DNA of 37,528 nt from a virus: positions 1-37,528 of IMG/VR virus record IMGVR_UViG_3300030101_000274. The stretch is one strand, 5' to 3'. Positions 8,718 to 37,528 of this stretch are shown one piece after another; positions within the stretch are counted from its first letter, which is position 1; every line of letters starts with the position of its first letter. Position numbers and translations under genes: made by a program. Under the pieces are notes generated by a model, which was given only the letters and a program-made list of their open reading frames with translations, searched no databases and was not told the DNA's origin.

Positions 8718-10586
8718 ATGCCTTTAGCTAAATATGTTTTCAAACCAGGTATTAATAAAGAAGGAACAAACTACTCTAATGAGGGTGGTTGGTTTGATGC
8801 TGATAAAGTAAGATTTAGAAAAGGTAAACCTGAAAGAATAGGTGGCTGGTCTAAATTTACTACAGATTCTTTTATAGGAACTTGTAGAAAATTATATCCC
8901 TATAAAGCAACAAGCGGAGATAGTTTTGTAATATTAGGCACTCATCAAAAATTATATAATCTTAATGGTGATGTTTACTATGATATAACCCCTATTAGAG
9001 CTACAACTACAAATGGTATTACATTTGCTGCAAGCAATGGCTCTTCTACAATAACTGTAACAGATTCAAGTCATGGAGCAGTTACAGGAGATTTTGTTAC
9101 TATTTCTGAAGCAGTTTCTTTAGGTGGATTAATTACAGCAGATGTATTAAATCAAGAGTATCAAATAGAAAAAGTTACAGGAGATAATACATACGAAATA
9201 ATAGCTAAAGATACTTCAGGAACAACAGTAACAGCAAATGCTAGTGATTCTGGTAATGGCGGTTCTGGGGTAGATGGTGTATATCAGATTAATTCAGGAT
9301 TAGATGTTTATGTAAGAAGCACAGGTTGGGGTGTAAATACTTGGGGAGCTGGAACATGGGGTTCTGCTAGTGATTTAACATTAACTAATCAACTTAGATT
9401 ATGGTCAATAGATAATTTCGGTGATGATACTATTGCTGCACCTAGAGCTGGAGCTTTATATTTTTGGGATAAATCAGATGGTCTTACTACAAGAGCAGTA
9501 GCTGTATCTTCAGAATCAGGTGCTAGTGATGTTCCAACAGCTTGCTTGCAAGTTATGACATCAGATGTAGATAAGCACGTTATAGCATTTGGAGCTAATC
9601 CTATAGGTAGTTCAACTATAGACCCATTATTAGTTAGATTTTCTGACAGAGAAAGTGCAGTTGATTGGACACCTACTGCAACAAATCAAGCTGGTGGTGT
9701 GCAATTATCTCAAGGTTCTACAATTGTAGGAGCTTTGCGTACTAGACAAGAAATACTTATATGGACAGATGCAGGTATTGTATCTATGCGTTTTGTTGGT
9801 GAGCCTTTTGTTTTTAGTTTTACAGAAGTTGCCGAGGGTGTAAGTTTAATATCACCAAATGCTGCAACTAATGCAAATGGTAGAGTCTATTTTATGGATC
9901 GTGATGGTTTTCATGTTTACTCAGGAACATCACAAAGGTTGCCATGTACTGTATTAGATTATGTATTATCTGATCTAAATCAAGATCAAGCTTATAAAGT
10001 ATTTGCAGCTTCAAATTCGAGTGTTAATGAAGTTATGTGGTTTTATCCTTCAGGCACAAATACAGAAATAGATAAGTATGTATTATTTAATTATTTAGAA
10101 AATACATGGTCTATAGGAACAACATCAGATAATTTTGTAAGAACTGCATGGAATGAAGCTTCTATATATGAAAATCCAATAGCAGCAAGTAAAAATAGCA
10201 GTACATCTAATTTAAATTATGTATATAGCCATGAAATAGGACATGGAGATGACACAGATGCTTTTACAGCTTTTATAGAATCAAGTGATTTTGATCTAGC
10301 ACCAGATGGAGAAAGATATACATTCATATCAAAATTAATACCTGATATAGAATTCAGAGATCAACAATCAACAAGTGATAGTGTAACTTTTACTATTAAA
10401 GGTAGAGACTTTCCTTTACAAGATTTATCTACTTTACAGACTATAGATGTAACACCAGCTTCTACATTTGCAAATACAAGAGCAAGAAGCAGACAAGCAG
10501 CATTACGTATATCTAATTCATCTAGTGATTACGGCTGGAGATTAGGTGATTTAAGATTAGAAATTAGACCAGATGGTAAAAGATAA
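8718..10586 (+). CDS. Tail/DNA-stabilisation protein resembling P22 gp10
   Basis: A 622-residue beta-rich virion protein. ATG 8718 is used because it follows GAGG and the previous stop; an in-frame start at 8688 would lie within the endolysin gene. The N-terminus (KPGINKEGTNYSNEGGWFDADKV, quoted in part, then VRFRKGKPERIGGW) and later segments such as LLVRFSDRESAVDWTPT, LRTRQEILIWTDAG and YFMDRDGFHVYSG match the packaged-DNA stabilisation or tail-hub family found in marine podoviruses. It probably forms part of the tail tube that plugs the portal. Assignment to the family is good; the precise position in the tail is inferred from P22. Confidence 0.78.
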   Translation: MPLAKYVFKPGINKEGTNYSNEGGWFDADKVRFRKGKPERIGGWSKFTTDSFIGTCRKLYPYKATSGDSFVILGTHQKLYNLNGDVYYDITPIRATTTNGITFAASNGSSTITVTDSSHGAVTGDFVTISEAVSLGGLITADVLNQEYQIEKVTGDNTYEIIAKDTSGTTVTANASDSGNGGSGVDGVYQINSGLDVYVRSTGWGVNTWGAGTWGSASDLTLTNQLRLWSIDNFGDDTIAAPRAGALYFWDKSDGLTTRAVAVSSESGASDVPTACLQVMTSDVDKHVIAFGANPIGSSTIDPLLVRFSDRESAVDWTPTATNQAGGVQLSQGSTIVGALRTRQEILIWTDAGIVSMRFVGEPFVFSFTEVAEGVSLISPNAATNANGRVYFMDRDGFHVYSGTSQRLPCTVLDYVLSDLNQDQAYKVFAASNSSVNEVMWFYPSGTNTEIDKYVLFNYLENTWSIGTTSDNFVRTAWNEASIYENPIAASKNSSTSNLNYVYSHEIGHGDDTDAFTAFIESSDFDLAPDGERYTFISKLIPDIEFRDQQSTSDSVTFTIKGRDFPLQDLSTLQTIDVTPASTFANTRARSRQAALRISNSSSDYGWRLGDLRLEIRPDGKR

Positions 10587-10789: not shown

Positions 10790-11120
10790 TGATTTAAAAG
10801 TATTAGGTCAGCTAGACCCAGCAGCCACTACTACAACAGTTTTATATACTGTGCCAGATATGACACAAACCACAATTAGTTCGATTGTGGCAGCTAATAG
10901 AACAGGATCAGCTATAACATTTAGATTAAGTGTTCATGTAGCTGGTGCAGGTGCAAATGACAAACAATTTTTATACTACGATAAATCAGTTGCAGCTAAT
11001 GATTCGTTAGCTATAGTTATAGGTATAACCCTTAATCAAACAGATGTATTAAAGGTTTACACAAGTGCGGTTGATATGAGTTTTAATGTGTTCGGTTGCG
11101 AAACTAAAGAGGAAAGATAA
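10782..11120 (+). CDS. Probable virion structural protein, beta-rich
   Basis: A 112-residue protein made almost entirely of alternating hydrophobic and polar residues, as in a beta-sandwich. Segments TVLYTVPDMTQTTISSIVAA, NRTGSAITFRLSVHVAGAG and KVYTSAVDMSFNVFGCE resemble a small tail or capsid-decoration protein common in marine podovirus late operons. It is translationally coupled on both sides (8-base and 1-base overlaps). There is no catalytic motif. The exact structural role is unknown. Confidence 0.68.
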   Translation: MADDLKVLGQLDPAATTTTVLYTVPDMTQTTISSIVAANRTGSAITFRLSVHVAGAGANDKQFLYYDKSVAANDSLAIVIGITLNQTDVLKVYTSAVDMSFNVFGCETKEER

Positions 11121-13408
11121 TGGATATTAAACAACAAACTAAAAATGTAGCAGCTCAAGGTCGTTATGGCGACTCTATGCTTTTGCACGTTAATCCAGCA
11201 GAGGTAAAAGGATTAGCGTCAGCTATGCCTATAACAGTCAATCCGCAGACTGGACAGCCAGAAGCATTTTTACCTTTTCTTGCTCCTTTAGCAGGTTCTT
11301 TAATTGGTGGAAGTTTATTTAGTGGTGCTTTAGGAACATTAGGTGCTTCTGCATTAGGTTCAGGTCTTGCACAATATGCAGCTACAGGTGATCTTAAAAA
11401 AGGATTATTAGCTGGTCTTACAGGATATGGTGTAGGTACTGCACTACAAGGTGCAGCAGGTGCAGCAGGTGCATCCGCAGCTTCGCAAGCAGCTACTGAC
11501 GTTGCTACTACAGCAGGAACTTTAGGTGAAGCTGCAACTCAAGAAGCTATACAAAGTGCAGCTACACAAGCTGGAGGTGAAGCTTTAAAAACTGCTTCTA
11601 CTTTTGCTCCAGCTACAGCCACTACCGCAGTAACTGGCACACCTTTTGCAAATTTAAAATCAGTTTTTAATCCTGCTGCTATAACAGATACAACAGCAGC
11701 AACTGCTCCTGATTTATTAACAGCAGGAACAACAGTTGATCCTACTTTAGGAACAAGTTTTGGAAACTTAGCAACAGGATTAGCTGATCCTATGGCATAC
11801 ATACCAGTAGGTATAGGTATGGGTGGTACTGGAATAATGGAATCACAAGAAGCCTTTGCAAGAATGGTAGGTGAAAGCGAAGAAGCATATAGAAGAAGAA
11901 GAGAAGCAATGTATCGTGATAATCCTGAACCTATTCTTTATTCAGCAGAAGGTGGAAGAACTGGTTATTATGAAGGCGGTAGATTTGGTGAAATACCAGA
12001 CAATATAACAGGTGGTAATTTGCCACAAATATTTGCACCTGCTAAACAAGCATATGATGTAAACCCTGATTTTATGGCAGGATTTGCACCTGAAACTATG
12101 TATTTTAATCCAGCTACAATATCAGCCCCTGCGTCTGGTTTACAAGCAGGAGCACCTCCTATAGGCTTAGATACATATGAAGGCTCTAAAGGCGGTTATG
12201 GAGGTAGACAAGCATCTATAGCACCACAAACGACTATAGACCCATACTCAGCTTATACAGGTTCTGCACCTAAAGGTTTAGAATTTACTGAAGCTCCTAT
12301 GCCTGTACAACCTTTACCAGAATTACCTGTGCAACCAATTTTACCACCTGATTTTGGAATAGGCATACCAGATATAGATATAGGTAGTATTGATATTCCT
12401 AATATAGGAAATATAGATATTCAATCAATAATAGATGGATTAGGAAATTATGATATACCTGAAAGATTTGTACCTATAACAGGAGAAGATTTAGGAATTA
12501 CACAACCTTCTTTACCTAATTTTGTAACTCCATTTGATGACACTATAGCCGAAGAACTTCCTAAAGAAAGTTTTATGATGACGGCTGCCGAATTAGAAAA
12601 AATAGGAGGAACTCCACAACCAGTTAGTGGTGGCGGATTAGGTGCTCTTTTTGGTGGTTTAACTCCACAAGAACCAATTGTTAGTGAAATGAATACGCAA
12701 GTTGCACCTGCATTAGATGTAACTTCTGTACCTGCATTAGATGTTTTAGACCCAGTTGTAGCTAAACAAGTAGTTGATATTCCAACTTATAATTATAACG
12801 ATCCTGCTAGATTAGCCAGAATAGATGATTATTTTGGAAGTGATAGATTTGCATCTGCATCAGGTGGTTCTACTAATTTTCAAGAAGGAGGAGCTTTAAA
12901 ACCTATTCCAGAAGATAATAAAGGCTTACCTAATTTACCTAAAGATGTAAGAAATGAAATGGGTTATATGCAAGAAGGTGGTATGACTGATATGCAAAGT
13001 GATCCTCTTACCAAAGAAGTAACTATGTTTATTCTAGGTGAAACAGATAATGAACAAGCACTTAATGACTTTATAACTAAATATGGAAGTGATGCTTTTA
13101 TGCAATTAAGAGAAGCAGTTTTACAATCTATAGTTCCTAATGCCCAAACACAAGGTCTAATTAGAGGTGATGGAGAAGGCGGAATGGATGATGATCTTAG
13201 GGGCATGATAGGTGATAAAGAAAGAATAGCTGTATCTCAAGATGAGTTTATTGTTCCTGCTGATGTAGTATCAATGTTAGGAGATGGCAGTTCAGACGCT
13301 GGTTCTAAAGAACTTTATGACATGATGGATAGAGTACGCAAAGAAAAAACAGGCACTACTAAACAAGCACCTAGATTAGCTAATGCTGGAGGACTATTAC
13401 CCGCATGA
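11120..13408 (+). CDS. Large internal virion-like protein with glycine/alanine-rich N-terminus
   Basis: A 762-residue protein. Residues 50-200 are rich in Gly, Ala, Thr and Leu with hydrophobic runs, which could form membrane-active helices. The middle is rich in Pro, Gly and Ile (PIGLDTYEGSKGGYG; IGIPDIDIGSIDIPNIGNID). Short motifs of type [AE]-E-G-G-R recur (YSAEGGRTGYYEGGR, FQEGGALKP, MQEGGMTD). The C-terminus has a block conserved in marine podoviruses (ERIAVSQDEFIVPADVVSML). It lies where T7-like phages keep internal core proteins, so ejection with DNA is a reasonable guess. No enzyme domain is recognised. Confidence 0.7.
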   Translation: MDIKQQTKNVAAQGRYGDSMLLHVNPAEVKGLASAMPITVNPQTGQPEAFLPFLAPLAGSLIGGSLFSGALGTLGASALGSGLAQYAATGDLKKGLLAGLTGYGVGTALQGAAGAAGASAASQAATDVATTAGTLGEAATQEAIQSAATQAGGEALKTASTFAPATATTAVTGTPFANLKSVFNPAAITDTTAATAPDLLTAGTTVDPTLGTSFGNLATGLADPMAYIPVGIGMGGTGIMESQEAFARMVGESEEAYRRRREAMYRDNPEPILYSAEGGRTGYYEGGRFGEIPDNITGGNLPQIFAPAKQAYDVNPDFMAGFAPETMYFNPATISAPASGLQAGAPPIGLDTYEGSKGGYGGRQASIAPQTTIDPYSAYTGSAPKGLEFTEAPMPVQPLPELPVQPILPPDFGIGIPDIDIGSIDIPNIGNIDIQSIIDGLGNYDIPERFVPITGEDLGITQPSLPNFVTPFDDTIAEELPKESFMMTAAELEKIGGTPQPVSGGGLGALFGGLTPQEPIVSEMNTQVAPALDVTSVPALDVLDPVVAKQVVDIPTYNYNDPARLARIDDYFGSDRFASASGGSTNFQEGGALKPIPEDNKGLPNLPKDVRNEMGYMQEGGMTDMQSDPLTKEVTMFILGETDNEQALNDFITKYGSDAFMQLREAVLQSIVPNAQTQGLIRGDGEGGMDDDLRGMIGDKERIAVSQDEFIVPADVVSMLGDGSSDAGSKELYDMMDRVRKEKTGTTKQAPRLANAGGLLPA

Positions 13409-15299: not shown

Positions 15300-16633
15300 T
15301 GAATTTAGTAGAGTTAGCAACAGAATTAGAATACGTGCCTAAAGATCAATTAGCACAAATGTCACAAGACCCTAGCAGTAGGTATCCTCAATACTTAGTA
15401 TTATCAGAGATACAAAGAAGAACTGCTAATGAAAAGGCTTATGCAGCAGCACAACCAAAACCTACTTCTACAGTAGCAGAAGAAGTTGTTGGTGAGTTTA
15501 TGCAGCCTCAAAGTTTGCAAGCAGGTATGCCATCTGAATCAGCTCCAACTGATGCTTTCTCTTCAGAGTCTATGGGTATGCCTGCCTCTGCTCTTATGCA
15601 ACAACCCATGATGGGTATGGCTAGTGGTGGTCTAACTGGTTATGCAGTAGGTGGTCCAGCATTACAACAAAGTTTTGTAAATCCTTATCTTGACAGTATT
15701 AGAGAATTTGCTTCCGATAGATACTTTGATGAAGAAGACGATTTTAATTATGGCACAGCATTATTAGATGCTTCTTTATTAATACCTGGAGCAGGATTAG
15801 TAGGTGCTGCTGGTAGAGGTTTATTTGGATTAGGTAGAACTTTAACAGGAGCTATAAGAGGCAAAGGTTTAAAAGATAAAGCACTACGAGGTTTACAAAG
15901 TGCATTTACAAAACCTGGGGTTTCTAAAAAACAAATAGAAGCTACTCGTAAAAAAGCTTATGAAGATGCTAGAAAAAGAGCAGTAGATCAACAAAAGAAA
16001 AATCTAGGTGTTAAATCTACAGATGGCAAACAATTAGTTGCCACAGGTAAAGATACTTTAGTTCCTATGGGTTCTAAAAATGTACCTATTCCAGCAGGCG
16101 GTAGAGTTTTTGATCCTATGAAAACTGCTAAAGCTATAAGTTATCCTGTTGCTGGTGCATATGTATTATCAGGATTAGGTGGTGAAGATGCACCTGAGAT
16201 TCCACAAGAATTACAAGAATTAAATACTGGATTAGGAGGAGTAGTAGCCGAAAAACCTAAAAAAGAAATTGATTATGATCTTGTAGGATTAGGTGGTCTT
16301 ATTATGGGTTCTAGAGATATGAGTGAATTTGGTAAAGGTTTATCAGAATTTGCAACAACTGCTTCTAAACGTAAAATAGAAAAAGAAGCACTAGCTACTC
16401 AAAATGAACTTAGAAAAGCACAAGCAGCTAAATATAGAGCTGATCTCAAAACTATGGGCTTTAATGAACTACAAGGTGAAATACAATTAATTAATGAAGC
16501 TTTTGAAACAGGAGCTTTAGATATTCAAGACCCTGTTATACAAAATTATTTAATGTCTCTTTATGAAGCATTAGCTCAACGAAGAGGCGGTAGTTTACAA
16601 GACGACATATTAAAACAACAACAAGCTAGTTAA
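15299..16633 (+). CDS. Probable internal virion protein
   Basis: A 444-residue protein. The N-terminus (MNLVELATELEYVPKDQLAQ) is helical, followed by a Met/Gly/Ser-rich low-complexity part, a hydrophobic glycine-rich segment at about 155-190 (ALLDASLLIPGAGLVGAAGR), a basic region, and a helical C-terminus. The motif ASGGLTGYAVGG echoes the glycine motifs of the protein at 11120, pointing to a shared assembly partner. It lies in the T7 gp15-like position between the Gln-rich protein and the giant virion protein. No enzymatic motif is visible. Confidence 0.7.
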   Translation: MNLVELATELEYVPKDQLAQMSQDPSSRYPQYLVLSEIQRRTANEKAYAAAQPKPTSTVAEEVVGEFMQPQSLQAGMPSESAPTDAFSSESMGMPASALMQQPMMGMASGGLTGYAVGGPALQQSFVNPYLDSIREFASDRYFDEEDDFNYGTALLDASLLIPGAGLVGAAGRGLFGLGRTLTGAIRGKGLKDKALRGLQSAFTKPGVSKKQIEATRKKAYEDARKRAVDQQKKNLGVKSTDGKQLVATGKDTLVPMGSKNVPIPAGGRVFDPMKTAKAISYPVAGAYVLSGLGGEDAPEIPQELQELNTGLGGVVAEKPKKEIDYDLVGLGGLIMGSRDMSEFGKGLSEFATTASKRKIEKEALATQNELRKAQAAKYRADLKTMGFNELQGEIQLINEAFETGALDIQDPVIQNYLMSLYEALAQRRGGSLQDDILKQQQAS

Positions 16634-19600
16634 TGAGCACATACAAAGCACCTGACGGAACTGTTTATAACATTCCGACAGACCCATCCAGAAGGAGTCG
16701 TTTTGTTGCAGCTATAAAAGGTAAATACGGACAAGACTTAGACGAAACAACTGTAGCAGGACAAGCTGCTGAGTTTGTTAAGGCTATACCTAGAGGTGCT
16801 GCTAGTTTAGCTTTAGACGTACCAACTGGTATTGTTTCTCTTTTTGACATAGGTGATGATAGCGAAACCCTTAAAGGTTTACGAGGTCTTGAAAAGTCTT
16901 TACGAGAAGATTCCATACTAGCTGCTGATCCTAGATATGCTGATACGTTTGTAACAAAACTAGGTGAAGGTGTAGGTTCTTTTGGTCCATTTCTTGGAGC
17001 TGGATTAGCAGGTAGAGCATTAGCAAAAGCTGGTACTGTAGGTGCTAGAACTGGTGCATATGGAATACCAGCAGCTTTAGCTATACCAACAGGTATGGCT
17101 GCACAAGCTGATCGTATAAATATAGCCAGAGAAATGGGTGAAGATGTAGGTGCACTAACTGAAACAGGTGCAACATTATTAGGTGGTGCAATAGGTCTAA
17201 CAGAAATATTACCAGTAGCTAGTTTTTTAAAGAAAGTACCTAAGAGTGCCGTAAGAAACCCAACCACAAGACAACAAATAGAAACAGCACTTAAACGATT
17301 TGGTTCTGGTGCTTTACAAGAAGGTGGTCAAGAAGTCTTTGCAAGCTTGGCACAAGACCTTACTGCTCGTGGTTTATATAGTGATGAACTACCAATAGGT
17401 GAAAGCGTATTTGATGAGTTTACAATAGGCGGTATTATTGGTGGTACAGCTAATCTTGTTGTTAAAAGCATGGGTGACAAGAAAGGTGTAAAAGCAGAAT
17501 ATACTGCTGAAAAGGCAAGACGAGAAACATTAAATAAAAGAAATTTATTAGAAGCCAAGAAAGTAGAACTTGGTATTAAACAAGGTACTTTGCAACAAGC
17601 AGAAGACCTCCCTCCAATAGTTATTCCAAACATTCCCCCTCCTCCCCCGATATTAGATACCCCTAGGTTTGATTACACTCAAAACCCAGACGGCTCTTTT
17701 GCTATTTTAAATTTAGATCAGATTGATAATCCTATAGTTGGTATGTCACCATCTGAAACTGAGGCTATTAAAACAGTAGATAAATTTAAAACAGAAGCTA
17801 ATAACGTCAAACTAAAAGCCGAACTAGACAATGCTTTGTACGCACAAGGAAATGTAAATAGTTCTGCTGCATTTGAAATAGGACAGTCATTACTAGACCC
17901 TGAAGCTACAACTATTACTCCCGAAACTTTGTTGCAACACACAAAAATGTCTGAGGCTAAAAGAAAAACATTCTTAGAGGAAAACAAGGGCAAAACTTTT
18001 TCTATGTCAGAAGCTGAAGCTGTAATGACTAAAAAAGATTTTGATGATCTTAATACGTCTTTATCTGAGGCTGTATTTAAAGAGTCAGAAAAAAATGGTA
18101 TTCCATCTATAAGAACAGAAGGTAAGTTGGATACTTCACAAAAGTATATAAATGATCTTTTAGCGTCAAAAAATATAGATATGTCTTTAGGAGGATTAGA
18201 TACAGCTACTTTTATTAAAGCAATAGAAGTTTATACAGGCAGTAGAACAAACTTTAATAATTTAAGTAAAGCACAAAAGGAACTTTTTTTAGCAAGAGTT
18301 CATGCAATGCCAAAATTTAATAATAAAACTTTATTTCCTGATTTTAGACCTAGAGAATATACAGCTCAAGATATTGCAGATTTTGTAGCAAGTGTTGGTA
18401 AAAGTGAATTTACTGCAAACGAAGTAGAAACATTTTTAAGAGATAGATTTGAAGGCAAAACCCCTCGTAATTATCAAGAAAAATTTGAAGAAAATGATGG
18501 TATTTTATTAGAACAAGTAGATACCTTTTTAAATGATTTAATAGTTAGTGGCAGAAGTGAATTTACTGGCACAGGAACAAGCCCTTCTACTTCAGGTAGA
18601 GTAATAAAAGAAAACTTTGAGTTTGATATAGCTCGTAGAGCAGAAGGATTTAATCAAACACCAGAAGAGTTCAGAGCATCATTAGAAGCAGAAGGTAAAT
18701 TAGCTCCAGAAATTATTGACCAGTTAGTAGAAAAAGAAGCTGCTAGACAAGAGAAAATATTACCTCCACAAGATATTGAGCCAAAGCTCATAAACTATGC
18801 AGAGGCTATGGAGCAAGGAAGAAAAAATAAATTTGCTCAAGAAGCTAAAAGAATTCTTAATGAAAGAGGTCTTAAAGAAACTGGAGTTATTGTTAGTGAT
18901 GAACTGTTATCAGCTAGCACATTAAAACAAGCAGTTGATAATGAAATTGTATATGACCCTAGAGAAGTTAAGAAAAGGGGCATAGAAGGTGAGTACGATA
19001 AACAATCAGACATAATCTTTTTATCTTTAAATAGAGTTAATCCTGAAGGTAATGCAACAGATGCAGAAATACAACAAAGATTAAATAGAATAATAGATCA
19101 TGAAGTTATCCATGCACTTAGAGCTAAAGATTTAATTAATGAAAAAGAGTACAAATACTTACGCAATGTAGTTAAAACTAAAAAAGTACCTAAAGCTTTT
19201 GATGAAAATGCTGGCAATATTACTTTTTATCAAAGAAGTAAAAATATAAATGAGCCAGTTGCTAGAACCAGAAACTTAAATGAAGCACAAACAGAAGAGT
19301 ATATAGTAGAAGAAGCTATAGCTGAGTTGTATAGAGCAAGACAAGACATACCTACAGTTGCCCCTAAGACAAGAACAATATTTCAAAAGATAGTTGATTT
19401 CTTTAAAGGCATGGGTGATGCAATGCGAGTGTCAGGGTTTGCTAATGTTACAGAAGTATTTCAAGAAATAGATCAAGGCAATATAGGTCGTAGAGAAAGG
19501 GGTGAAATACGAACTACCAGAGAGTTAGATACTGGTGAAGAAGTAGATTTACTGCCAGAGGATTTAGCTAATCTAGCAGCCGAAAGTCAAAGACAAACTA

Positions 19601-22600
19601 CTGAGGCTTTAGTAGGTCGTGAAAGAGTATTAGGTGATGAGCCTATTGTTACTACACAAGAACTAGCTCAAATGAATAGGATTAGAATAATTCCTCCTAA
19701 AACACCTACACCAACAGGTACACCTCCTACAGGTGCTACACCTGCACCTACGTCAGGAACATTATATGATTCCTCTAAACTTTCTTTTGCTGATGCCATG
19801 ACAGAAAGGCAAAAAATTAAAGATGGTATAGAAGGAAAAAATCTTATAGGTGCTATGGAATGGTTATCTAAAAATGCACCTAGTAAAGACTATGAACTGG
19901 TAACTAAAAAAGTATTAGGTCAATTAAGAAAACTAAAAAGAGTTGGTTATGACTTTAGACTTTCAATAGTAGATTTTAAAACTAAAGGTGGTGTTGCTAA
20001 TCCAGATTATGTTGCTGGTTTTTCACAATATGTAGGCGGTTATCATAGAGCTAAACAAGGTGCTAGAGGTAGAATTTTAAAAGATGTTTTGATTGCTTTG
20101 AATGATATGAAAGGCACACGAACAGAAAAAAAATATCATGTTAATGGTCTAAATTATGAAACTATATTACATGAAGCTATTCATGCAGCTACAGTATCAT
20201 CTATTAGAGCTACACAAGCTGGTCTTATAAAAGATGCACAACTTACTAAAGCATATGCTGATTTAGAAAATGTAAGAAATAAAACTATAACTCATATTAA
20301 AAAAGAAATAAGAGAATATAGACAAGCCGTAGACGATAATTTTACTTCTAGAAAACAAGATAGTTTTAGTAAACAAGTTATTAGAGCAGCAAATAATAGA
20401 TCATATGAAAATCATTTGTTGAATTATATGTTAGGTAAAGATGGAAGAGGCATTACAGAAATGCTTTCTTTTGGATTTACTAACAGAGAGTTTCAGGAAT
20501 TACTAGAAAGCATACCATTTAAACCTAAATCAAAAGATACACTTTGGACTAAGTTTGTTAATGCTATTAGAAGTGTATTAGGTATATCAGCAAAACAAAA
20601 TACCGCTTTATCTGCTTTCTTGAAGGGCGGTGAGCAATACTTGTCTCAAACTAATAATGCCCTTAATGAATATCCAGCATTTAATCCTAATGACGATATG
20701 GCATTTGGACCTGATCCAGATATAGAGCCACAAATAACTTTACCTCCAGAACAGGTTATTGAAATACAAAGACAGATAGATGATTTAAACAGTACATTAT
20801 TTGCTTTGAATCGTATTTATAGTCAAGAAATGAATACTATGAGTAATGCTAATGCTGCAAAAATGCTCAGACAAATTAAAGATACAGAAAATCAAATAGA
20901 AGATTTACAGAAACGACTATCACCAGATCAAGATATAGACAGCAGAATTATCTTCCAAGAAGGAACTAGATTCCAAGGTGAAGCAAACACTTCAGAAAAG
21001 ACAAGATTACAAGAAGCAGTTAGAGAAGCAGAGGAGCTTGTTAAGAAGACACCTAGGGGTGGAGTACCCTATTACAACACAAATGCGTCAGACGTTGCTA
21101 TAGACGCTGCTATGACGTTTAATAAAGACCCTTCGTTACAAGCACCACAAGACATACCTCGTTGGTCTGCTCCTTCATTAGAAGGTGTTGATCAAGATAT
21201 ACAAGAAGCAGAAAAAAGAATAGGTGGTGCTCAACCTGCTCCACAAAAGTCTTTTGGTGCAAGATTAATAGAAGTTGTAAAAGACCCTATCACTTCTATT
21301 AGAAATACTTTTGGTAACTTTAGACAAAACTTTGTTGATAAGTTAGATAAAGTTGATAAGAAAATACTACAAGCCACAGAACAAAATGAAGATGTTAGGC
21401 TAGCAAATAATACCGCAGATACAGCGACTATGGCTGCTTTAAGAATGGCTGATCGTGCCAGAGGTTTATTTCAAGCTATGCTTACTAAAGGAAATATAGC
21501 TGATCAAATAGAAGGGCAAGATGCTTTAGCTACTGTAGTTAAAACAAAAGAGGGTGGATTAATACAAATACTTGCACCTTTATACTCAAAGCCTGAATTA
21601 GATCAAGAAAGAATATTTAAGCTTTATGCTTCTTTAAAAAGACAAGAAAACTTTAACGAACAAGGAAGACTTGTATCTTCTCCTATTACAGATGCAGATT
21701 TAGCTTTAATAGAAAAGATAGAAAATAACTACACAGATGTAAAAACTGTATTTGATAACTATCAAAAATGGAACAATGAATTAATAGAGTTTGCTGTTCG
21801 TAAGGGTTTATTGAGTAGATACAAATCTAATAATGAAATCATACAAGAGTTAATACAACTTCGTGAAGACGGCAAAATAAACATAGACAATCAAACATTA
21901 CAAACTATGCAAGCTTTATCGGATGAAGCTGGTGGTAGAAGTGTTGATCAAATTAGAAGTATAGGTCAGCAGTTTGGAGTAGATACAAGAGGACAAGCAG
22001 AGCTTTGGAAGGAACATTCTAGTTACTATCCTTTCTATAGAAATATGGTGGATGATTCAGGTATAACTGCACCAACAATAGCTGGTGGAGCTTTGCCTAA
22101 TAACCCATTAAGCATTTCTTTAGAAGGTTCAGAAAATCCTTTAGATGTAAATCCTTTAGAAGCTATATCTAGAAACTCATTATCTATACTTACAGCCTCA
22201 CTTAAAAATGATGGACTAGCTAAATTAGTTAGAGATTTAGAAGCTATAGGTGAAGCCAAAGAAATATCAGCAGCAGATGCTGGTCAATTAAATTCTATAT
22301 TTGTTTTTGAAGATGGAATAAAAAGACATTACTTAGTAGATCGTAATATTGTAGAAGGAGTACAAGGAGTGGGTGGAGTAGGTGTAAGCCCTATTACTAA
22401 ACTATTGGCTATGCCCGCAGGATTATTAAGAGATACTGTTACTCGTGACCCTGGATTTGTTGTAGTTAATATACTTAGAGATACGTTGTCATCTGCTGTA
22501 ACAAGTGGTGCTGAATTTACACCTGTTGTTGATTCTGTAAAAAATATGTTTAGAGACATGGAGCAGATAGAACAATTTGGTGTCATAGGTGGATATGATT

Positions 22601-24036
22601 TTGCCAATGATGAAGGTGAGGTTAAAGAATTTATAAATCGCACCATGCGTAGACAAGGACTAACACCTAATAATGGCATGAATGCAAAAGATGCCTTCTT
22701 CAAACTTTGGGATGGGTTGGGTGAACTAACAACAAAATCAGACGGAGCAACTAGATTAGCAGTCTATGAGTCGGTTTATAAAAAGTTAAAAGATCAAGGA
22801 TACACAGAAGCACAGGCTCAATCGGAAGCCGCTTATCAGTCGTTAGAAATAATCAACTTCGGCAGAAGAGGACTTGACCCAATGTTCAGGGTAATCACAT
22901 CTGCTATACCTTTCTTAAATGCAAGAATACAAGGATTAGACGTTCTATACAGAACATTCTTTTCTAAACAGTATTCGGCTTTAGAAAAACTACAAGAAGG
23001 GGAAACACTTGAAGACGTTCAAGGTAGAATATTTAGACGGGCAATGATAAACGGCTCATTCCTTACAGGTCTGACGCTACTTTATTATTTACTGGTTAGT
23101 GATACTGATGAATATAGAAACCTTAAACGTGAAGTCAGAGATGATAACTGGGTAGTACCCACACCTTTTGACTACGCAATAAAAATACCAATACCTTTTG
23201 AAGTCGGCATGATGTTCAAAGCTATACCTGAAAGAGTATTTGACTTGACTCTAGGTGATGATGCTTTCTCTCAAGCTTCCTTTGATGAATTCCTAACTTC
23301 TACCCAAAGACAACTAGGAACATCTGCTAATGTGCCTTTCATAGGCGGTGACATAGGCATACAAGCACTAAAACCAATAGTAGAAGCAGTAACAAATAGA
23401 AACAGTTTTACAGGACAAGAGATTGTTCCTTACTATCAACTAAAAAGAGAAGCTGGATATCAGGCTAGAGAAGGAACTAACTCACTAGCTAAAGCTTTAG
23501 GTGAAGCCTTAAACATATCACCCGCTAAGATAGAGCACGTCATAAGAGGATATACAGGAACACTTGGAGGATATGTCTTATCAGCTACAGATTCAATAAC
23601 TCGTACTGCTACAGGTCAGCCTTTGCTTCCTTCCAATGTTGATCTTGCAAGACAACTACCTGTCGTAAATAGGCTTATCATGGATACAGATAAGGCGGGA
23701 GGACTGCAACAACAATTCTATGAACTCAGGGGAGAAGTAGATAAAGCAGTTAATACAATGAATGCTCTCAAGAAACAACAACGCTTTGATGAACTATCAG
23801 CTTATAGAAGCAATATGAAAGGTGTTGTAGGTGTAAAAGGTCAGGTAAGAGCCTTAGAAAGATACTTAGATAATTGGAGAAAGAGAAGGGATAGACTTCT
23901 CAGAAACGAGAATATGTCTGTAATCGCTAAGTCAGACAAGCTTAGAGAAATGGAACTAGAAAGAGACAGAAGACTAGCCTTCGTTCCTGAACTAAGAAAG
24001 AAAGCTAGAGTGCCCGTCATAAACCTGAACCTTTAA
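16633..24036 (+). CDS. Giant 2,467-residue virion protein with two zincin motifs and an LPD38-like C-terminus
   Basis: This single frame is about a fifth of the window. The N-terminus (MSTYKAPDGTVYNIP) is followed by glycine/alanine-rich hydrophobic segments (about 110-280), a polyproline stretch near 327-343, then long helical regions. Two HExxH motifs are present: HEVIH at 823-827, followed by a possible third ligand in EEAIAELYRA near 895, and HEAIH at 1180-1184, followed by EMLSFGFTNREFQELL near 1276. The C-terminal ~700 residues resemble large polyvalent protein domain LPD38 (e.g. RDPGFVVVNILRDTLSSAV; AIPFLNARIQGLDVLYRTFF). It probably travels in the virion and enters the host, like T7 gp16. 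Peptidase activity is inferred from motif only. Confidence 0.82.
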   Translation: MSTYKAPDGTVYNIPTDPSRRSRFVAAIKGKYGQDLDETTVAGQAAEFVKAIPRGAASLALDVPTGIVSLFDIGDDSETLKGLRGLEKSLREDSILAADPRYADTFVTKLGEGVGSFGPFLGAGLAGRALAKAGTVGARTGAYGIPAALAIPTGMAAQADRINIAREMGEDVGALTETGATLLGGAIGLTEILPVASFLKKVPKSAVRNPTTRQQIETALKRFGSGALQEGGQEVFASLAQDLTARGLYSDELPIGESVFDEFTIGGIIGGTANLVVKSMGDKKGVKAEYTAEKARRETLNKRNLLEAKKVELGIKQGTLQQAEDLPPIVIPNIPPPPPILDTPRFDYTQNPDGSFAILNLDQIDNPIVGMSPSETEAIKTVDKFKTEANNVKLKAELDNALYAQGNVNSSAAFEIGQSLLDPEATTITPETLLQHTKMSEAKRKTFLEENKGKTFSMSEAEAVMTKKDFDDLNTSLSEAVFKESEKNGIPSIRTEGKLDTSQKYINDLLASKNIDMSLGGLDTATFIKAIEVYTGSRTNFNNLSKAQKELFLARVHAMPKFNNKTLFPDFRPREYTAQDIADFVASVGKSEFTANEVETFLRDRFEGKTPRNYQEKFEENDGILLEQVDTFLNDLIVSGRSEFTGTGTSPSTSGRVIKENFEFDIARRAEGFNQTPEEFRASLEAEGKLAPEIIDQLVEKEAARQEKILPPQDIEPKLINYAEAMEQGRKNKFAQEAKRILNERGLKETGVIVSDELLSASTLKQAVDNEIVYDPREVKKRGIEGEYDKQSDIIFLSLNRVNPEGNATDAEIQQRLNRIIDHEVIHALRAKDLINEKEYKYLRNVVKTKKVPKAFDENAGNITFYQRSKNINEPVARTRNLNEAQTEEYIVEEAIAELYRARQDIPTVAPKTRTIFQKIVDFFKGMGDAMRVSGFANVTEVFQEIDQGNIGRRERGEIRTTRELDTGEEVDLLPEDLANLAAESQRQTTEALVGRERVLGDEPIVTTQELAQMNRIRIIPPKTPTPTGTPPTGATPAPTSGTLYDSSKLSFADAMTERQKIKDGIEGKNLIGAMEWLSKNAPSKDYELVTKKVLGQLRKLKRVGYDFRLSIVDFKTKGGVANPDYVAGFSQYVGGYHRAKQGARGRILKDVLIALNDMKGTRTEKKYHVNGLNYETILHEAIHAATVSSIRATQAGLIKDAQLTKAYADLENVRNKTITHIKKEIREYRQAVDDNFTSRKQDSFSKQVIRAANNRSYENHLLNYMLGKDGRGITEMLSFGFTNREFQELLESIPFKPKSKDTLWTKFVNAIRSVLGISAKQNTALSAFLKGGEQYLSQTNNALNEYPAFNPNDDMAFGPDPDIEPQITLPPEQVIEIQRQIDDLNSTLFALNRIYSQEMNTMSNANAAKMLRQIKDTENQIEDLQKRLSPDQDIDSRIIFQEGTRFQGEANTSEKTRLQEAVREAEELVKKTPRGGVPYYNTNASDVAIDAAMTFNKDPSLQAPQDIPRWSAPSLEGVDQDIQEAEKRIGGAQPAPQKSFGARLIEVVKDPITSIRNTFGNFRQNFVDKLDKVDKKILQATEQNEDVRLANNTADTATMAALRMADRARGLFQAMLTKGNIADQIEGQDALATVVKTKEGGLIQILAPLYSKPELDQERIFKLYASLKRQENFNEQGRLVSSPITDADLALIEKIENNYTDVKTVFDNYQKWNNELIEFAVRKGLLSRYKSNNEIIQELIQLREDGKINIDNQTLQTMQALSDEAGGRSVDQIRSIGQQFGVDTRGQAELWKEHSSYYPFYRNMVDDSGITAPTIAGGALPNNPLSISLEGSENPLDVNPLEAISRNSLSILTASLKNDGLAKLVRDLEAIGEAKEISAADAGQLNSIFVFEDGIKRHYLVDRNIVEGVQGVGGVGVSPITKLLAMPAGLLRDTVTRDPGFVVVNILRDTLSSAVTSGAEFTPVVDSVKNMFRDMEQIEQFGVIGGYDFANDEGEVKEFINRTMRRQGLTPNNGMNAKDAFFKLWDGLGELTTKSDGATRLAVYESVYKKLKDQGYTEAQAQSEAAYQSLEIINFGRRGLDPMFRVITSAIPFLNARIQGLDVLYRTFFSKQYSALEKLQEGETLEDVQGRIFRRAMINGSFLTGLTLLYYLLVSDTDEYRNLKREVRDDNWVVPTPFDYAIKIPIPFEVGMMFKAIPERVFDLTLGDDAFSQASFDEFLTSTQRQLGTSANVPFIGGDIGIQALKPIVEAVTNRNSFTGQEIVPYYQLKREAGYQAREGTNSLAKALGEALNISPAKIEHVIRGYTGTLGGYVLSATDSITRTATGQPLLPSNVDLARQLPVVNRLIMDTDKAGGLQQQFYELRGEVDKAVNTMNALKKQQRFDELSAYRSNMKGVVGVKGQVRALERYLDNWRKRRDRLLRNENMSVIAKSDKLREMELERDRRLAFVPELRKKARVPVINLNL

Positions 24037-33540: not shown

Positions 33541-33576
33541 AAAAAGGCGGTAACTACCTAAGTAGCTACCGCCTTT
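33541..33576 (-). terminator. Leftward intrinsic terminator after the ART-like gene
   Basis: GGCGGTA at 33546-33552 pairs with TACCGCC at 33567-33573. After one mismatch a second stem of four pairs (33554-33557 with 33562-33565) closes on a four-base loop. Leftward, the stem is followed by about nine T. It begins roughly ten bases after the stop of the gene at 33584. The + strand side also has TTTAATTT, so weak bidirectional action is possible. Confidence 0.85.
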
Positions 33577-33583
33577 AATTTAT

Positions 33584-34294
33584 TTAGTCCTCTTCAGGAA
33601 CATAGATTATCTCTGATTCTTTACGACCATTAAGATATGCCAACGCATCACTCTTATTGATTGTCTTCTCAAAGACCTCTTGATCTTGATTCCACCTGTT
33701 AGCAAACCAACACGCTCTATCTTTATCAAGAGTCCAAGAGAAACCTTTATCATCCATGCCACCACGAAATATTGTTATCTCGTCAGGTAAAGAATCAAAA
33801 AAGGTTTTCTCTTCTTCATTCATCATCAGATTAGGATTGGAGTATTGCTCTGTCAAAAAGCTTCTCCAAGAATATTTGTTTTGATATATATTCTCGGAGT
33901 CTATCCAAACACGAACGACTTGTTCCCAATAATCCTCATCTAAATCAGGAGTCCACCATTCACCATAAGCTTCTAATAAAGCATCATGCCTGTAAGGTCT
34001 TTCATGCAAATAGATAAACATTTCTATATCTTTATTCTCAATAGCACTCTGCACTTGAATACATTTAGCTTCGTACTGCAAATTGTATTGAGTTGTTAAT
34101 ATAGGATTGTCACCCATTGGAGCAACGACCAACAAAGGATGATGAATAGTCTTTCCAAAGGAAGCTTCTCCAACACATTCCTTTAGATCATCATGCAATT
34201 CAACCTTCTCTTCAGAATTGTTTAACGCATTAAATACGCTATCATCACTAAAAAGATCGCCTAATTGCTTATGTATTTCTTGAAGTCTATTCAT
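33584..34294 (-). CDS. ADP-ribosyltransferase-like protein (R-S-ExE motif)
   Basis: A 236-residue protein with GAGGAGGT before its ATG. The C-terminal ~70 residues show the mono-ADP-ribosyltransferase signature: Arg177 in EITIFRGG, Ser186 in GFSWTLDKD, and the ExE pair Glu226/Glu228 in GRKESEIIY. The ExE form in known toxins and T4 Alt/Mod modifies arginine. The N-terminal ~165 residues are an unassigned acidic helical domain with several Trp and Tyr. It probably modifies a host protein during infection; the target is unknown. It ends a leftward operon and is followed directly by a strong terminator. Confidence 0.72.
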   Translation of the reverse strand: MNRLQEIHKQLGDLFSDDSVFNALNNSEEKVELHDDLKECVGEASFGKTIHHPLLVVAPMGDNPILTTQYNLQYEAKCIQVQSAIENKDIEMFIYLHERPYRHDALLEAYGEWWTPDLDEDYWEQVVRVWIDSENIYQNKYSWRSFLTEQYSNPNLMMNEEEKTFFDSLPDEITIFRGGMDDKGFSWTLDKDRACWFANRWNQDQEVFEKTINKSDALAYLNGRKESEIIYVPEED

Positions 34295-34797: not shown

Positions 34798-34988
34798 TTA
34801 GACACCTCCTTCCTTTCGGATTCCCAATTTAAAATATCAAGATCAAACTTCTTGGCAATATCTAGAGCCATGTTAAATCTTCTTTTACCTATTTCAGATG
34901 ATCTATTCGTTCTAATTAACTCTAGATTTATCTGCTCAAGATACAATAAGACTGCATCAGTCATTACTTCTTTCTCTAGTTTATCCAT
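34794..34988 (-). CDS. Small hypothetical protein
   Basis: A 64-residue helical protein (MDKLEKEVMTDAVLLYLEQI, then RSSEIGKRRFNMALDIAKKF). The start overlaps the previous gene by 8 bases and has GGAGGTG upstream; the stop overlaps the next ATG. Nothing in the sequence indicates function. It is part of the four-gene leftward operon downstream of the hammerhead ribozyme. Confidence 0.6.
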   Translation of the reverse strand: MDKLEKEVMTDAVLLYLEQINLELIRTNRSSEIGKRRFNMALDIAKKFDLDILNWESERKEVSK

Positions 34989-35298
34989 GAGACACCTCCA
35001 AGATTACTCTGTCACCTTTTAAAGTGAACGTAACAGTATCACCAACATCTGCTTGAGCCTTGATACCTTTAATAGATATCCTCCTATCTGCTCTAGCATT
35101 TTTAGTTCTGTAACATTTGATGAATGTTCTAGTTCCGTTTTTAAACTCAGCTTGAAAACTGTGCCAAGAACCACTCAACATATCATCAAAGAATACATCT
35201 TGAGTCTTAACAAACTCTCTAACGCTAGCATTAGCATCAATGATATGTTTGTTAATCATTGTTTTGGTTAACTTAATAACCGCTTTTTTATCACTCAT
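34981..35298 (-). CDS. Hypothetical protein, first gene downstream of the hammerhead ribozyme
   Basis: A 105-residue protein. ATG 35298 is preferred because GGAGG lies five bases upstream; an in-frame ATG at 35310 would include that ribosome site in the coding region. The N-terminal part is basic and helical (MSDKKAVIKLTKTMINKHII), followed by a beta-rich half (WHSFQAEFKNGTRTFIKCYR, then GDTVTFTLKGDRVILEV). It could be a small RNA- or DNA-binding protein. Its leader contains a complete hammerhead ribozyme that would give the mRNA a new 5' end about 82 bases before this start. Confidence 0.65.
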   Translation of the reverse strand: MSDKKAVIKLTKTMINKHIIDANASVREFVKTQDVFFDDMLSGSWHSFQAEFKNGTRTFIKCYRTKNARADRRISIKGIKAQADVGDTVTFTLKGDRVILEVSHG

Positions 35299-35328
35299 AA
35301 TTTCCTCCATTGTAAGTAATAGTTAGTA

Positions 35329-35389
35329 AAACTGATTTCGAGGATTTTTCCTCTCATCAGGCAAAAACACACATTTTTGCTATCAGTTT
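35329..35389 (-). ncRNA. Type III hammerhead ribozyme
   Basis: Read on the - strand from 35389 to 35329, all parts of a hammerhead occur in order. Stem III 5' strand AAACUGAU (35389-35382); cleavage base A17 at 35381 (NUH triplet AUA); stem I GCAAAAA/UUUUUGC with a six-base loop (35380-35361); core CUGAUGA (35360-35354); stem II GAGGA/UCCUC with an AAAA loop (35353-35340); core GAAA (35339-35336), whose last A starts the stem III 3' strand AUCAGUUU (35336-35329). Stem III has eight pairs and is open, which defines type III. Cleavage is predicted between 35381 and 35380. Confidence 0.93.
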
Positions 35390-35483
35390 GTAAGAATTGG
35401 CTTTCATAAGTCCATTCTAAGAAAGAAACTGAAGGCAAGTTAACCTAGGACACCTCCTAAATTAACCTACCTTTAGAATCCAC

Positions 35484-36848
35484 TTATGCGTAGAAGTCAG
35501 CAGTATCAACGTAAACCACCTCACCAAAAGGAAGGTTTTCAGAGTAACGACTCTTATCGGTTACGCACCACACTACAGGACACTCAGGCTCTTGTTCAGG
35601 CTCTACAGTTCCATATCCATCCGTAAAGTAAACAAAGGCTTGAACGTCTTCCACATCATCAGACCATTCATTGAACAGATGAAAGGGAGGGTCAAAGGAA
35701 GTTCCTCCCCCACCACGAACCTTGAGTTCTAGGTCTTCACCTTGATTCAGTTCGTAGATATCCCACCATTCACCTTGATCATTTTTCACTACTGTAGATG
35801 CACAGTAGCAAACTCTAACCTTGTCCAATCCGCAGTCTTCAGCCATAGCTTGTACTTCACTCGCAAACTGATCTAGTTCGTGTTGTGAAACACTTCCGCT
35901 AGTATCAACCGCAATAGCAAGTTCTCCTCCTTCAGGATTACGAACCTTGCTAGGTAAGTTGATACCTCTCCACGCATGACGTTTATTAAGTCTAGACCAA
36001 GAATAGTCATTGCAAGTCAACGACTGTAAGAAGTCATTCAACATATCTTTCCAAGATATAGCTGATTCCTTTTCACTCTCAATGCCACCTTTCATATCAG
36101 AAGTACCGCTTCCAAATTGCTCTAGCTTGTCAGCTAGTGAAACTGCTCTTTGAATCTCGCCTTTGAGTTCTTGCATTTCTGCTTCGTTCATTGGCTTGCC
36201 TTCTTCGTTGGTAGCATCCCAAACTTCTCCAATTGCGGAAGGAAGATTATCTAAATCAGCGAAAGACCGCGATTGACCATTTTCGTCTTCAGTAGAATAT
36301 TTTCCTTTACCAGTCAATGATTGATCTTCTCCTTGATCATCAGACTCAGAATCCCCCCCACCTTCGGAGTCTTGCGACTCTTCAGGCTTGTGTTCTTCGT
36401 TGTCATTGTTGATCTGATCAACCGCATCTTGCAAGGCATCCTCATCTTTGATCAGATGTTGATACACCTTCTCAGCAGTCCAACCTTTGTACTGATAATC
36501 AAGAAGACCGCCTGTAGGCAAAGTCATTCTTAGATCATAGTGAAGGTAGTTATTGATTACATAATCGCAAGCAATATTCCAAACTTTAGGATGTCTCTTC
36601 CCTCTCCTCAAAGGATGTTCATAGACAACATGTAAAGCTTCGTGGACAAGTACACCTTGCAGTTCTTCTTCGGTAACACCCTCAACAAAATCAGGAAAGA
36701 AATATATCTTCTTTCCACAAGTTGCCATAGTGTCACACTTAGAAGAATCGACCTCCACTAAATCAAGGTGTAAGAGCATACTTGCCATACCTACATTGCC
36801 TTGCATTAGCTTTGATCTAGCCTTAATGATCTTATCTAAACTAGTCAT
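35484..36848 (-). CDS. DUF2201-like metallopeptidase/VWA protein
   Basis: A 454-residue protein. ATG 36848 is preferred over an in-frame GTG at 36869 because GGAGGT lies seven bases upstream. The N-terminal domain has HEALH at residues 69-73 and a following ACDYVINNYL block, typical of the predicted metallopeptidase of DUF2201. A long acidic, low-complexity linker (about 145-200) leads to a VWA-type domain with a MIDAS motif: Asp315, Ser317 and Ser319 in DTSGSVS, Thr in GGGGTSFDP and Asp in FTDGYG. Such proteins usually work with a MoxR-type AAA ATPase. None is in the window, but it could lie just beyond the right edge. The 185 bases after its stop hold the ribozyme. Confidence 0.87.
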   Translation of the reverse strand: MTSLDKIIKARSKLMQGNVGMASMLLHLDLVEVDSSKCDTMATCGKKIYFFPDFVEGVTEEELQGVLVHEALHVVYEHPLRRGKRHPKVWNIACDYVINNYLHYDLRMTLPTGGLLDYQYKGWTAEKVYQHLIKDEDALQDAVDQINNDNEEHKPEESQDSEGGGDSESDDQGEDQSLTGKGKYSTEDENGQSRSFADLDNLPSAIGEVWDATNEEGKPMNEAEMQELKGEIQRAVSLADKLEQFGSGTSDMKGGIESEKESAISWKDMLNDFLQSLTCNDYSWSRLNKRHAWRGINLPSKVRNPEGGELAIAVDTSGSVSQHELDQFASEVQAMAEDCGLDKVRVCYCASTVVKNDQGEWWDIYELNQGEDLELKVRGGGGTSFDPPFHLFNEWSDDVEDVQAFVYFTDGYGTVEPEQEPECPVVWCVTDKSRYSENLPFGEVVYVDTADFYA

Positions 36849-37528
36849 CTTTCTTACCTCCAAAGGCACGTTCTAAGAACCCACCTTTAAGTCCGCCAAC
36901 AGACTGTTCAAGACCTTCAGCTACTTGCTTACGTTTTGATTCACCTAGTTCTGTATCATCCCTTAGAGACTCCACAGAGTTGATAGAAGCAAGAACGCTT
37001 ACAAGTTGTTGATGAGCATCAGAGATAGATTGATCATTGCCTAAGATGTCTGAATTAATAGAAGGAAGAGTTTCAACCGCCTGTCTCAATTTCTCGATAC
37101 TGCTATTGTTGAAAAATCCCTTCTGCTTGTTTTCAGGGTCGTAGGCTTTTAGCTTCTCAGCTAAATGATCTACTTGCGAAACAAGTGCATCAACAGTAGT
37201 AACTAAAATGTTCTTAATGTTGGTGCTTGCTCTGTTTACTGCATCACTCTCTATCCTCTTCCTAAGTTCATCAGATACATTTAATCTAATATCAGAACCA
37301 AAAGTCGGTAGCGGAGACAATTCAAACTGGAAGATAAATTTATCTCTCAGTCTTTGCAAATCCCAATCGTCAGTCGGATAATCGTCTTCATCAAACGCAT
37401 CACCTAATCTGTCTTTTGCATTCGCAATGTCTAGAGGTAGTTGCTTGAAAAAACCCTCTACCTCTCTATCCCAAATCACTTTCGCTTGATTGACTTCGTA
37501 CTGAAGCTTTTCAAGTTGTGAGTTAGGA
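36841..37528 (-). CDS. Partial helical protein paired with the VWA/metallopeptidase
   Basis: The frame is open to the right edge, so the N-terminus is missing; at least 228 residues are visible. A GTG at 37479 is an internal candidate, but the sequence upstream (PNSQLEKLQYEVNQAK) reads smoothly and is probably part of the protein. It is helical and charged, with FFKQLPLDIANAKDRLGDAF, then acidic residues, and a C-terminal GLKGGFLERAFGGKKDD. It resembles DUF6744-type phage proteins in gene order and pattern. It overlaps the VWA gene by 8 bases, implying a joint function. Confidence 0.65.
   Translation of the reverse strand, partial: PNSQLEKLQYEVNQAKVIWDREVEGFFKQLPLDIANAKDRLGDAFDEDDYPTDDWDLQRLRDKFIFQFELSPLPTFGSDIRLNVSDELRKRIESDAVNRASTNIKNILVTTVDALVSQVDHLAEKLKAYDPENKQKGFFNNSSIEKLRQAVETLPSINSDILGNDQSISDAHQQLVSVLASINSVESLRDDTELGESKRKQVAEGLEQSVGGLKGGFLERAFGGKKDD

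Follow-up and report, generated by a model that had tools for sequence, protein, structure and literature searches.

An intergenic type III hammerhead ribozyme of a phage and hammerhead arrays in related viral contigs

The locus and the anatomy of its ribozyme

The window analyzed here is a 37,528-nucleotide stretch of viral DNA (positions 1 to 37,528 of IMG/VR record IMGVR_UViG_3300030101_000274), and the genes that concern us lie on its minus strand. The gene at 36841 to 37528 has probably lost its 5' part at the contig end (its counterpart in the related locus L034 encodes 327 amino acids), and it is the partner of a gene at 35484 to 36869, which encodes a putative metallopeptidase and VWA-like protein (DUF2201_N, DUF2201). 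Between the stop of this VWA gene at 35484 and the next start codon, an ATG at 35298 preceded by the Shine-Dalgarno sequence GGAGG (35304 to 35308), there is a gap of 185 bases. Based on the Shine-Dalgarno sequence, we reassigned the start of this downstream gene, which now spans 34981 to 35298 rather than the 34981 to 35310 of the open reading frame (ORF). The downstream gene block ends at a strong intrinsic-terminator-like site (33543 to 33576, minus strand). Elsewhere, positions 16633 to 24036 of the window are occupied by a single ORF of 2467 amino acids.

Within the 185-base gap, a 19-bp hairpin (35432 to 35473, minus strand) lies just after the VWA stop and is a candidate 3'-end protector of the upstream mRNA. 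It is also present in the related loci L001, L007, and L008, with a different sequence in L007. A second small hairpin folds at the 5' side of the ribozyme (approximately 35394 to 35420, minus strand) and has a counterpart in L008 and less clear ones in L001 and L007. The ribozyme itself occupies 35329 to 35389 on the minus strand, and the downstream ATG lies 30 nt past its 3' end. Masking of the ribosome-binding site was considered at this locus and rejected, since the Shine-Dalgarno sequence is predicted to be unpaired both before and after cleavage.

The minus-strand RNA from 35389 to 35329 is 5'-AAACUGAUA/GCAAAAAUGUGUGUUUUUGC-CUGAUGA-GAGGAAAAAUCCUC-GAAA-UCAGUUU-3', and its core and stems can be read directly. 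Stem III, which is open, pairs AAACUGAU (35389 to 35382) with AUCAGUUU (35336 to 35329), that is, 7 bp plus the invariant U16.1-A15.1 pair (U35382 with A35336). Stem I (35361 to 35380) is a loop-closed hairpin of 8 bp in which GCAAAAAU (35380 to 35373) pairs with GUUUUUGC (35368 to 35361), with a closing U-G pair and the loop GUGU. Stem II (35340 to 35353), also loop closed, consists of 5 bp, GAGGA (35353 to 35349) with UCCUC (35344 to 35340), and the loop AAAA. Across relatives the loops are strongly conserved (UGUGU and AAAA/GAAA). The catalytic core is made up of CUGAUGA (35354 to 35360) and the GAAA segment (35339 to 35336); all core positions agree with the consensus (C3, U4, G5, A6, N7, G8, A9, G12, A13, and A14), and the core-adjoining pairs 1.1-2.1 and 10.1-11.1 are both G-C, with helices of 8, 5, and 7+1 bp. 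Position 17 is A35381, an H and not a G, and the predicted cleavage site AUA/G therefore falls between 35381 and 35380, at the H17 position of the hammerhead consensus. Cleavage is predicted to leave a 2',3'-cyclic phosphate at 35381 and a 5'-OH at 35380, and stem I would then be the flush 5' end of the downstream mRNA.

Judged from its sequence, this RNA belongs to the type III hammerheads in all the structural features open to testing, and we infer that it cleaves itself. A first-pass annotation of the window had already described a complete type III hammerhead on the transcribed strand of a phage operon leader, and our direct reading agrees with it on the coordinates, the stem lengths (7, 5, and 8 bp), the cleavage position at 35381/35380, and the length of the gap. 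It had also called the last gene of the downstream operon ART-like, but Pfam and PHROGs show no ADP-ribosyltransferase in the gene at 33584 to 34294, which is apparently the one that was meant.

Detection and conservation of the ribozyme

The core words alone are weak evidence, since the pattern CTGATGAN{4,34}GAAAT is expected 0.37 times per window. When the core and all three stems are required together, there is 1 match in 200 dinucleotide shuffles of the window, and in 341 kb made up of the window and its relatives there are 18 real matches versus 0 in 20 shuffles. We also used a covariance model trained on 72 type III ribozymes of other loci, with the window ribozyme and its orthologues excluded from the training set. 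The sole match of this independent model in the window is the ribozyme, at 45.9 bits and an E value of 1.3e-12, although the short calibration makes these E values rough. In the 341 kb there are at least 53 high-scoring matches, and the best shuffled score is 28.

Rfam 15 detects no hammerhead in the window, either at the gathering threshold or at an E value of ≤10, and nothing in 114 kb of relatives at the gathering threshold. A search with the Rfam type III family had been suggested as a check by the first-pass annotation; we judge its silence to be a false negative, because RF00008 also scores a textbook relative, one whose cleavage site is GUC and whose 10.1-11.1 pair is G-C, under its cut-off (42.2 bits against 48.5), which indicates that Rfam is insensitive to this ribozyme group. 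The cut-off under which the window ribozyme falls is a library threshold and not a structural feature. In stem order, core, cleavage site, and open stem III, the ribozyme is the same as RF00008 (Hammerhead_3). It differs in scoring under the cut-off or not at all, in its AUA/GUA site, in its short GUGU loop 1 and AAAA loop 2, and in the U10.1-U11.1 found in most of its relatives, an arrangement that hammerheads tolerate according to the main text of Perreault et al. 2011 (PMC3088659). Since Rfam annotation overlooks this group, the number of such ribozymes in virus genomes is probably underestimated. A blastn search of the locus against cultured phages gave no match.

Orthologous loci were fetched through protein similarity, either of the downstream gene's product or of the VWA protein upstream, and not by structure. 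The ribozyme is found at the same boundary in these loci, though the gene that follows it differs in some; in L034, for example, a 75-aa gene is inserted after the ribozyme. Stem II occurs as GAGGA/UCCUC, GACUU/GAGUC, and GGCUC/GAGCC and stem III as CUGA/UCAG and CUAA/UUAG, paired in each case, and in stem I one A-U pair is deleted on both sides in relatives. These paired changes were read by eye, since alignments A2 and A3 misplace a one-base indel. The first-pass annotation had named loss of core bases in all homologous phage loci as an outcome that would speak against it; what we find is a ribozyme kept in place with paired changes. In alignment A1 the covariation score is 0.94 versus 0.25, which is partly circular since the members were picked by a pairing descriptor, and we do not rank it as primary evidence. 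Taken with the independent covariance model, the conservation at the orthologous loci indicates that the self-cutting RNA between the two phage genes is almost certainly real.

Four of the orthologues (L001, L004, L005, and L007) have one extra nucleotide after A9, which we count against the role in punctuating the operon that is proposed below. This extra base between A9 and stem II, as CUGAUGA-U-GACUU...GAGUC-GAAA, can be seen at about 2951 to 2975 in L001 and about 2397 to 2421 in L007, as well as in L004 and L005, and it recurs at 6270 to 6323 in L044.

Hammerhead arrays in related viral contigs

Relatives whose sequence extends past the window's contig end have five or six hammerheads of types I and III on one strand; these span about 5 kb, and nearly every small operon has one in front of it. 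There are six in 5 kb in G004 (locus L034) and five or so in G001, G002, and others, and clustered hammerheads that flank genes on the transcribed strand are present in relatives G001 to G012. The window has only one, because its contig ends inside the next upstream gene. The first-pass annotation, in treating a single ribozyme, was not mistaken but left part of the picture out: an array cut off by the contig ends with this ribozyme, and conserved hairpins precede it.

The L034 array begins with a type III ribozyme at 10455, followed by a 129-aa gene (30 nt to the next called ORF), and continues with a type III at 10955 before genes of 65 and 61 aa (28 nt), a type I at 11409 before a 77-aa gene (22 nt), a type I at 11709 before a 353-aa AAA ATPase (37 nt), and a type III at 12937 before the 327-aa gene and the VWA gene (29 nt). 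The sixth, a type III at 15458, is the window's ribozyme and stands before the block of the window's downstream gene or its replacements; it is 18 nt from the called ORF, while the Shine-Dalgarno-preceded start in the window gives 30. Positions 10.1-11.1 are U-U in three of the six and A-A in one. The A-A combination, together with a 2-bp stem II, is conserved between L034 (10455 to 10503) and its homologues L032, L033, L035 to L040, and L042. Based on these arrays, we consider it likely that the window's type III hammerhead is the last (the sixth in G004) of a series that punctuates a minus-strand operon of this phage group.

The ribozymes are not confined to these relatives. A type III pattern with 21 specified bases has at least 120 matches in viral contigs but only 7 among some 85,000 species genomes of bacteria and archaea, so that we regard it as a predominantly viral form; the comparable pattern for type I also has at least 120 matches in viral contigs. 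The matches in bacterial genomes (L176 to L182) belong to Sphingobacterium griseoflavum, Paceibacterota, and other metagenome-assembled genomes, several of them CPR. We collected 189 distinct ribozymes (159 type III and 30 type I) in 138 loci, and the genes that follow them fall into 88 sequence clusters. In three of the loci, stem II of a type III ribozyme is expanded by a long, branched insertion, CUGAUGAGCGUCCGAAGGGCAUGAAGUUUAGCUUCAGCCUUUGGGUAUGCGAAA (L051 at 3108, L069 at 6145, and L081 at 5564).

The closest cultured relatives by terminase are HTVC023P, HTVC027P, 023Pt_psg01, DSL-LC04, Pag-Yong1, and CRP-901, which are at most 58% identical and of which HTVC023P and HTVC027P are pelagiphages. 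Scans of these phages, by structure search on the fetched parts and by core-word pattern on the whole records, found no convincing ribozyme or array, and the array is thus not essential to the wider group. In the freshwater cyanophage among them, Planktothrix phage Pag-Yong1 (L173, 4238 to 8695), the VWA and ATPase genes diverge from the terminase gene, an arrangement shared with the window's relatives, and no hammerheads were found there.

Position rules and proposed processing of the operon transcript

The two types of ribozyme occupy different positions. Among the 159 distinct type III copies, 80% lie 16 to 40 nt before an ORF start, compared with 15% of random positions. The start of a type I ribozyme, in contrast, coincides with the upstream stop (within -9 to +11 nt) in 22 of 26 cases, and in a separately selected set it does so in 55 of 86, compared with 6.9% at random. 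The separately selected type III set (19 copies) gives a weaker result, with 58% at start-codon distance and a strong hairpin within 12 nt in 6 of 15. A strong hairpin lies within 100 nt upstream of 69 of the 82 type III copies that follow an ORF, and 57 of these hairpins end no more than 12 nt away, whereas the controls have 116 of 268 for other intergenic sites and 33 of 157 for shuffles (Fisher P = 3e-11 versus intergenic sites). Where no upstream ORF is called, such a hairpin is rarer (P = 0.004), but 15 of 27 type III copies still have one, which we count against the role proposed below. Most contigs came from a single pattern and are mutually related, and these P values consequently overstate independence. 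In one orthologous group, six of the eight pairs of the hairpin are changed on both sides. The window's own strong hairpin ends 42 nt before the ribozyme and does not adjoin it, which we count against the punctuation of the operon.

Because up to six ribozymes stand in a row, the viruses probably cut one long message into separately protected gene messages. A long early transcript would be cut cotranscriptionally at every ribozyme. Where the ribozyme is of type III, a strong hairpin would remain on the upstream mRNA near its new 2',3'-cyclic-phosphate 3' end; the first nucleotide of the downstream mRNA, with its 5'-OH, would already be paired in stem I, and the ribosome-binding site would follow some tens of nucleotides later. 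At a type I site, where the ribozyme starts at the upstream stop codon, the stem III hairpin would remain as the 3' end. After a type III cut, the 3' strand of stem III, freed of the short released strand, would pair with CUGA of the core, making cleavage one-way. The net effect would be the autocatalytic conversion of one transcript into several messages with separately protected ends, and expression of the two gene blocks in the window may be uncoupled in this way. More tentatively, we propose that a widespread, mostly uncultured phage group might segment its operons with arrays of composite RNA punctuation. Each mark would join a 3'-protecting hairpin, a hammerhead whose freed stem III strand refolds onto the core, and, ahead of the ribosome-binding site, a flush 5' hairpin; type I would serve 3' ends and type III 5' ends. 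In the early operon of phage T7, the polycistronic early transcript is cut between its genes by RNase III, and hairpins protect the resulting ends. The arrays would achieve autocatalytically what RNase III sites achieve there. The likeness is a functional analogy: cutting in T7 is catalyzed by a protein with no ribozyme involved, and what the sequence shows here is the hairpins that would protect such ends.

The upstream hairpin might instead help the ribozyme to fold, by stacking on stem III or insulating it, rather than protect the upstream mRNA. Many of the hairpins end at distance 0 from stem III, with no gap, as such a role would favor. However, stems are weakest in the ribozyme that opens the array (4 bp in stem III and 2 bp in stem II), which nevertheless lacks an upstream hairpin where this was tested, and we regard the folding role as unlikely.

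A further feature concerns A15.1 and the 3' strand of stem III (35329 to 35336, minus strand), which is complementary to the core CUGAU as well as to its stem III partner. In the lowest-energy folds of both the 61-mer and its 3' product, CUGAU of the core pairs with AUCAG of stem III, and the active fold lies 1.1 kcal/mol above this alternative, with energies that omit tertiary contacts. Given this gap, part of the window RNA could misfold before cutting, and this too counts against the proposed punctuation. Refolding of the product is predicted in 96.6% of 119 distinct type III cores, versus 15 to 21% when positions 15.3 to 15.5 of stem III are randomised, a percentage inflated by shared ancestry; in a small independent set it is weaker (13 of 19). 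Refolding of the product that prevents religation is the simplest interpretation of these predicted folds. The same observations, that the alternative fold is the predicted minimum and that almost all of the main type III set shares the complementarity, would also suit a regulated switch, in which the CUGAU-AUCAG fold stays inactive until a signal, an ion level, or upstream translation frees the ribozyme and so tunes the downstream genes. We find this distinctly improbable: no conserved ligand-like domain is evident, the positions fit constitutive processing, the Shine-Dalgarno sequence is predicted to be open with or without cleavage, and tertiary loop contacts, which lie outside the energy model, should favor the active fold.

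That the window's 19-bp hairpin was flagged as terminator-like raises another explanation, namely that the hairpins are transcription terminators or pause sites and that the ribozymes only trim the read-through fraction. Hairpins abutting ribozymes lack a U tract, however, and the T-rich tail after the window's hairpin is lost in L001, which has CAGTTTCGCTCGC in its place, so that there is little to recommend this explanation. It is very improbable that the ribozymes stand outside phage gene control as selfish or circle-forming elements of the retrozyme kind. There are multiple copies per genome and pairs of them could release circles, but the copies hold fixed positions at gene boundaries with a different sequence at each site, orthologous sites are kept between relatives, and the spliced or circular products that Perreault et al. 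sought for their own clusters were not found, according to the main text (PMC3088659). That the window RNA resembles a hammerhead by chance, or has decayed and lost the ability to cut, would agree with the silence of Rfam and with an AUA site less usual than GUC, but it is hardly credible in view of the intact core bases, the paired changes in relatives, and the E value from the independent covariance model.

The main text of Perreault et al. describes clustered hammerheads that flank genes in the prophages of A. tumefaciens, A. caulinodans, and C. scindens and already proposes the processing of long phage transcripts or operons (PMC3088659). It also reports that related phage and clustered prophage ribozymes cleave in vitro and that the A. 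tumefaciens ribozyme cleaves in E. coli as well. The likeness to those clusters is that several hammerheads flank phage genes; the difference is that here, in virus contigs, one 5-kb operon has up to six, which follow position rules and have hairpins upstream. We found no description in that main text of a long regular array, a hairpin adjoining the ribozyme, the placement of type I at stop codons, or a stem III complementary to the core. The same text leaves the function of bacterial and phage hammerheads unclear, and arrays with positional rules offer a directly testable answer, that is, transcript segmentation and end protection. Also described there is the hammerhead of the haloviruses HF1 and HF2 (HHphage), 13 nt upstream of a start codon, which is similar in lying shortly before a start codon in a lytic virus but, on that description, differs in a core insertion near C3, an archaeal host, and a single copy.

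The hammerhead of Pseudomonas Bruynogheviruses, such as DL54, is near-identical to a virus-contig copy, with 47 nt at 93.6% identity to that in L067 (blastn), and likewise lies at the start of a gene. The type III copy of DL54 (44918 to 44974) ends where gp71 starts, and model R1 gives it 74 bits; unlike the relatives that have arrays, this phage has one clear type III ribozyme and one type I candidate and no long array. We take PaP3 to be a Bruynoghevirus too. Its hammerhead was tested and is active (Perreault et al. 2011, PMC3088659, main text). Nothing was found in the open-access literature on LUZ24 and a hammerhead, though prior descriptions may exist. Cultured Pseudomonas phages with a near-identical copy are a possible laboratory system. 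The type I candidate of DL54 (L175, near 43617 on the minus strand), which the type I descriptor does not match, has GGCCA/UGGCC as stem II and CCCAA/UUGGG as stem I.
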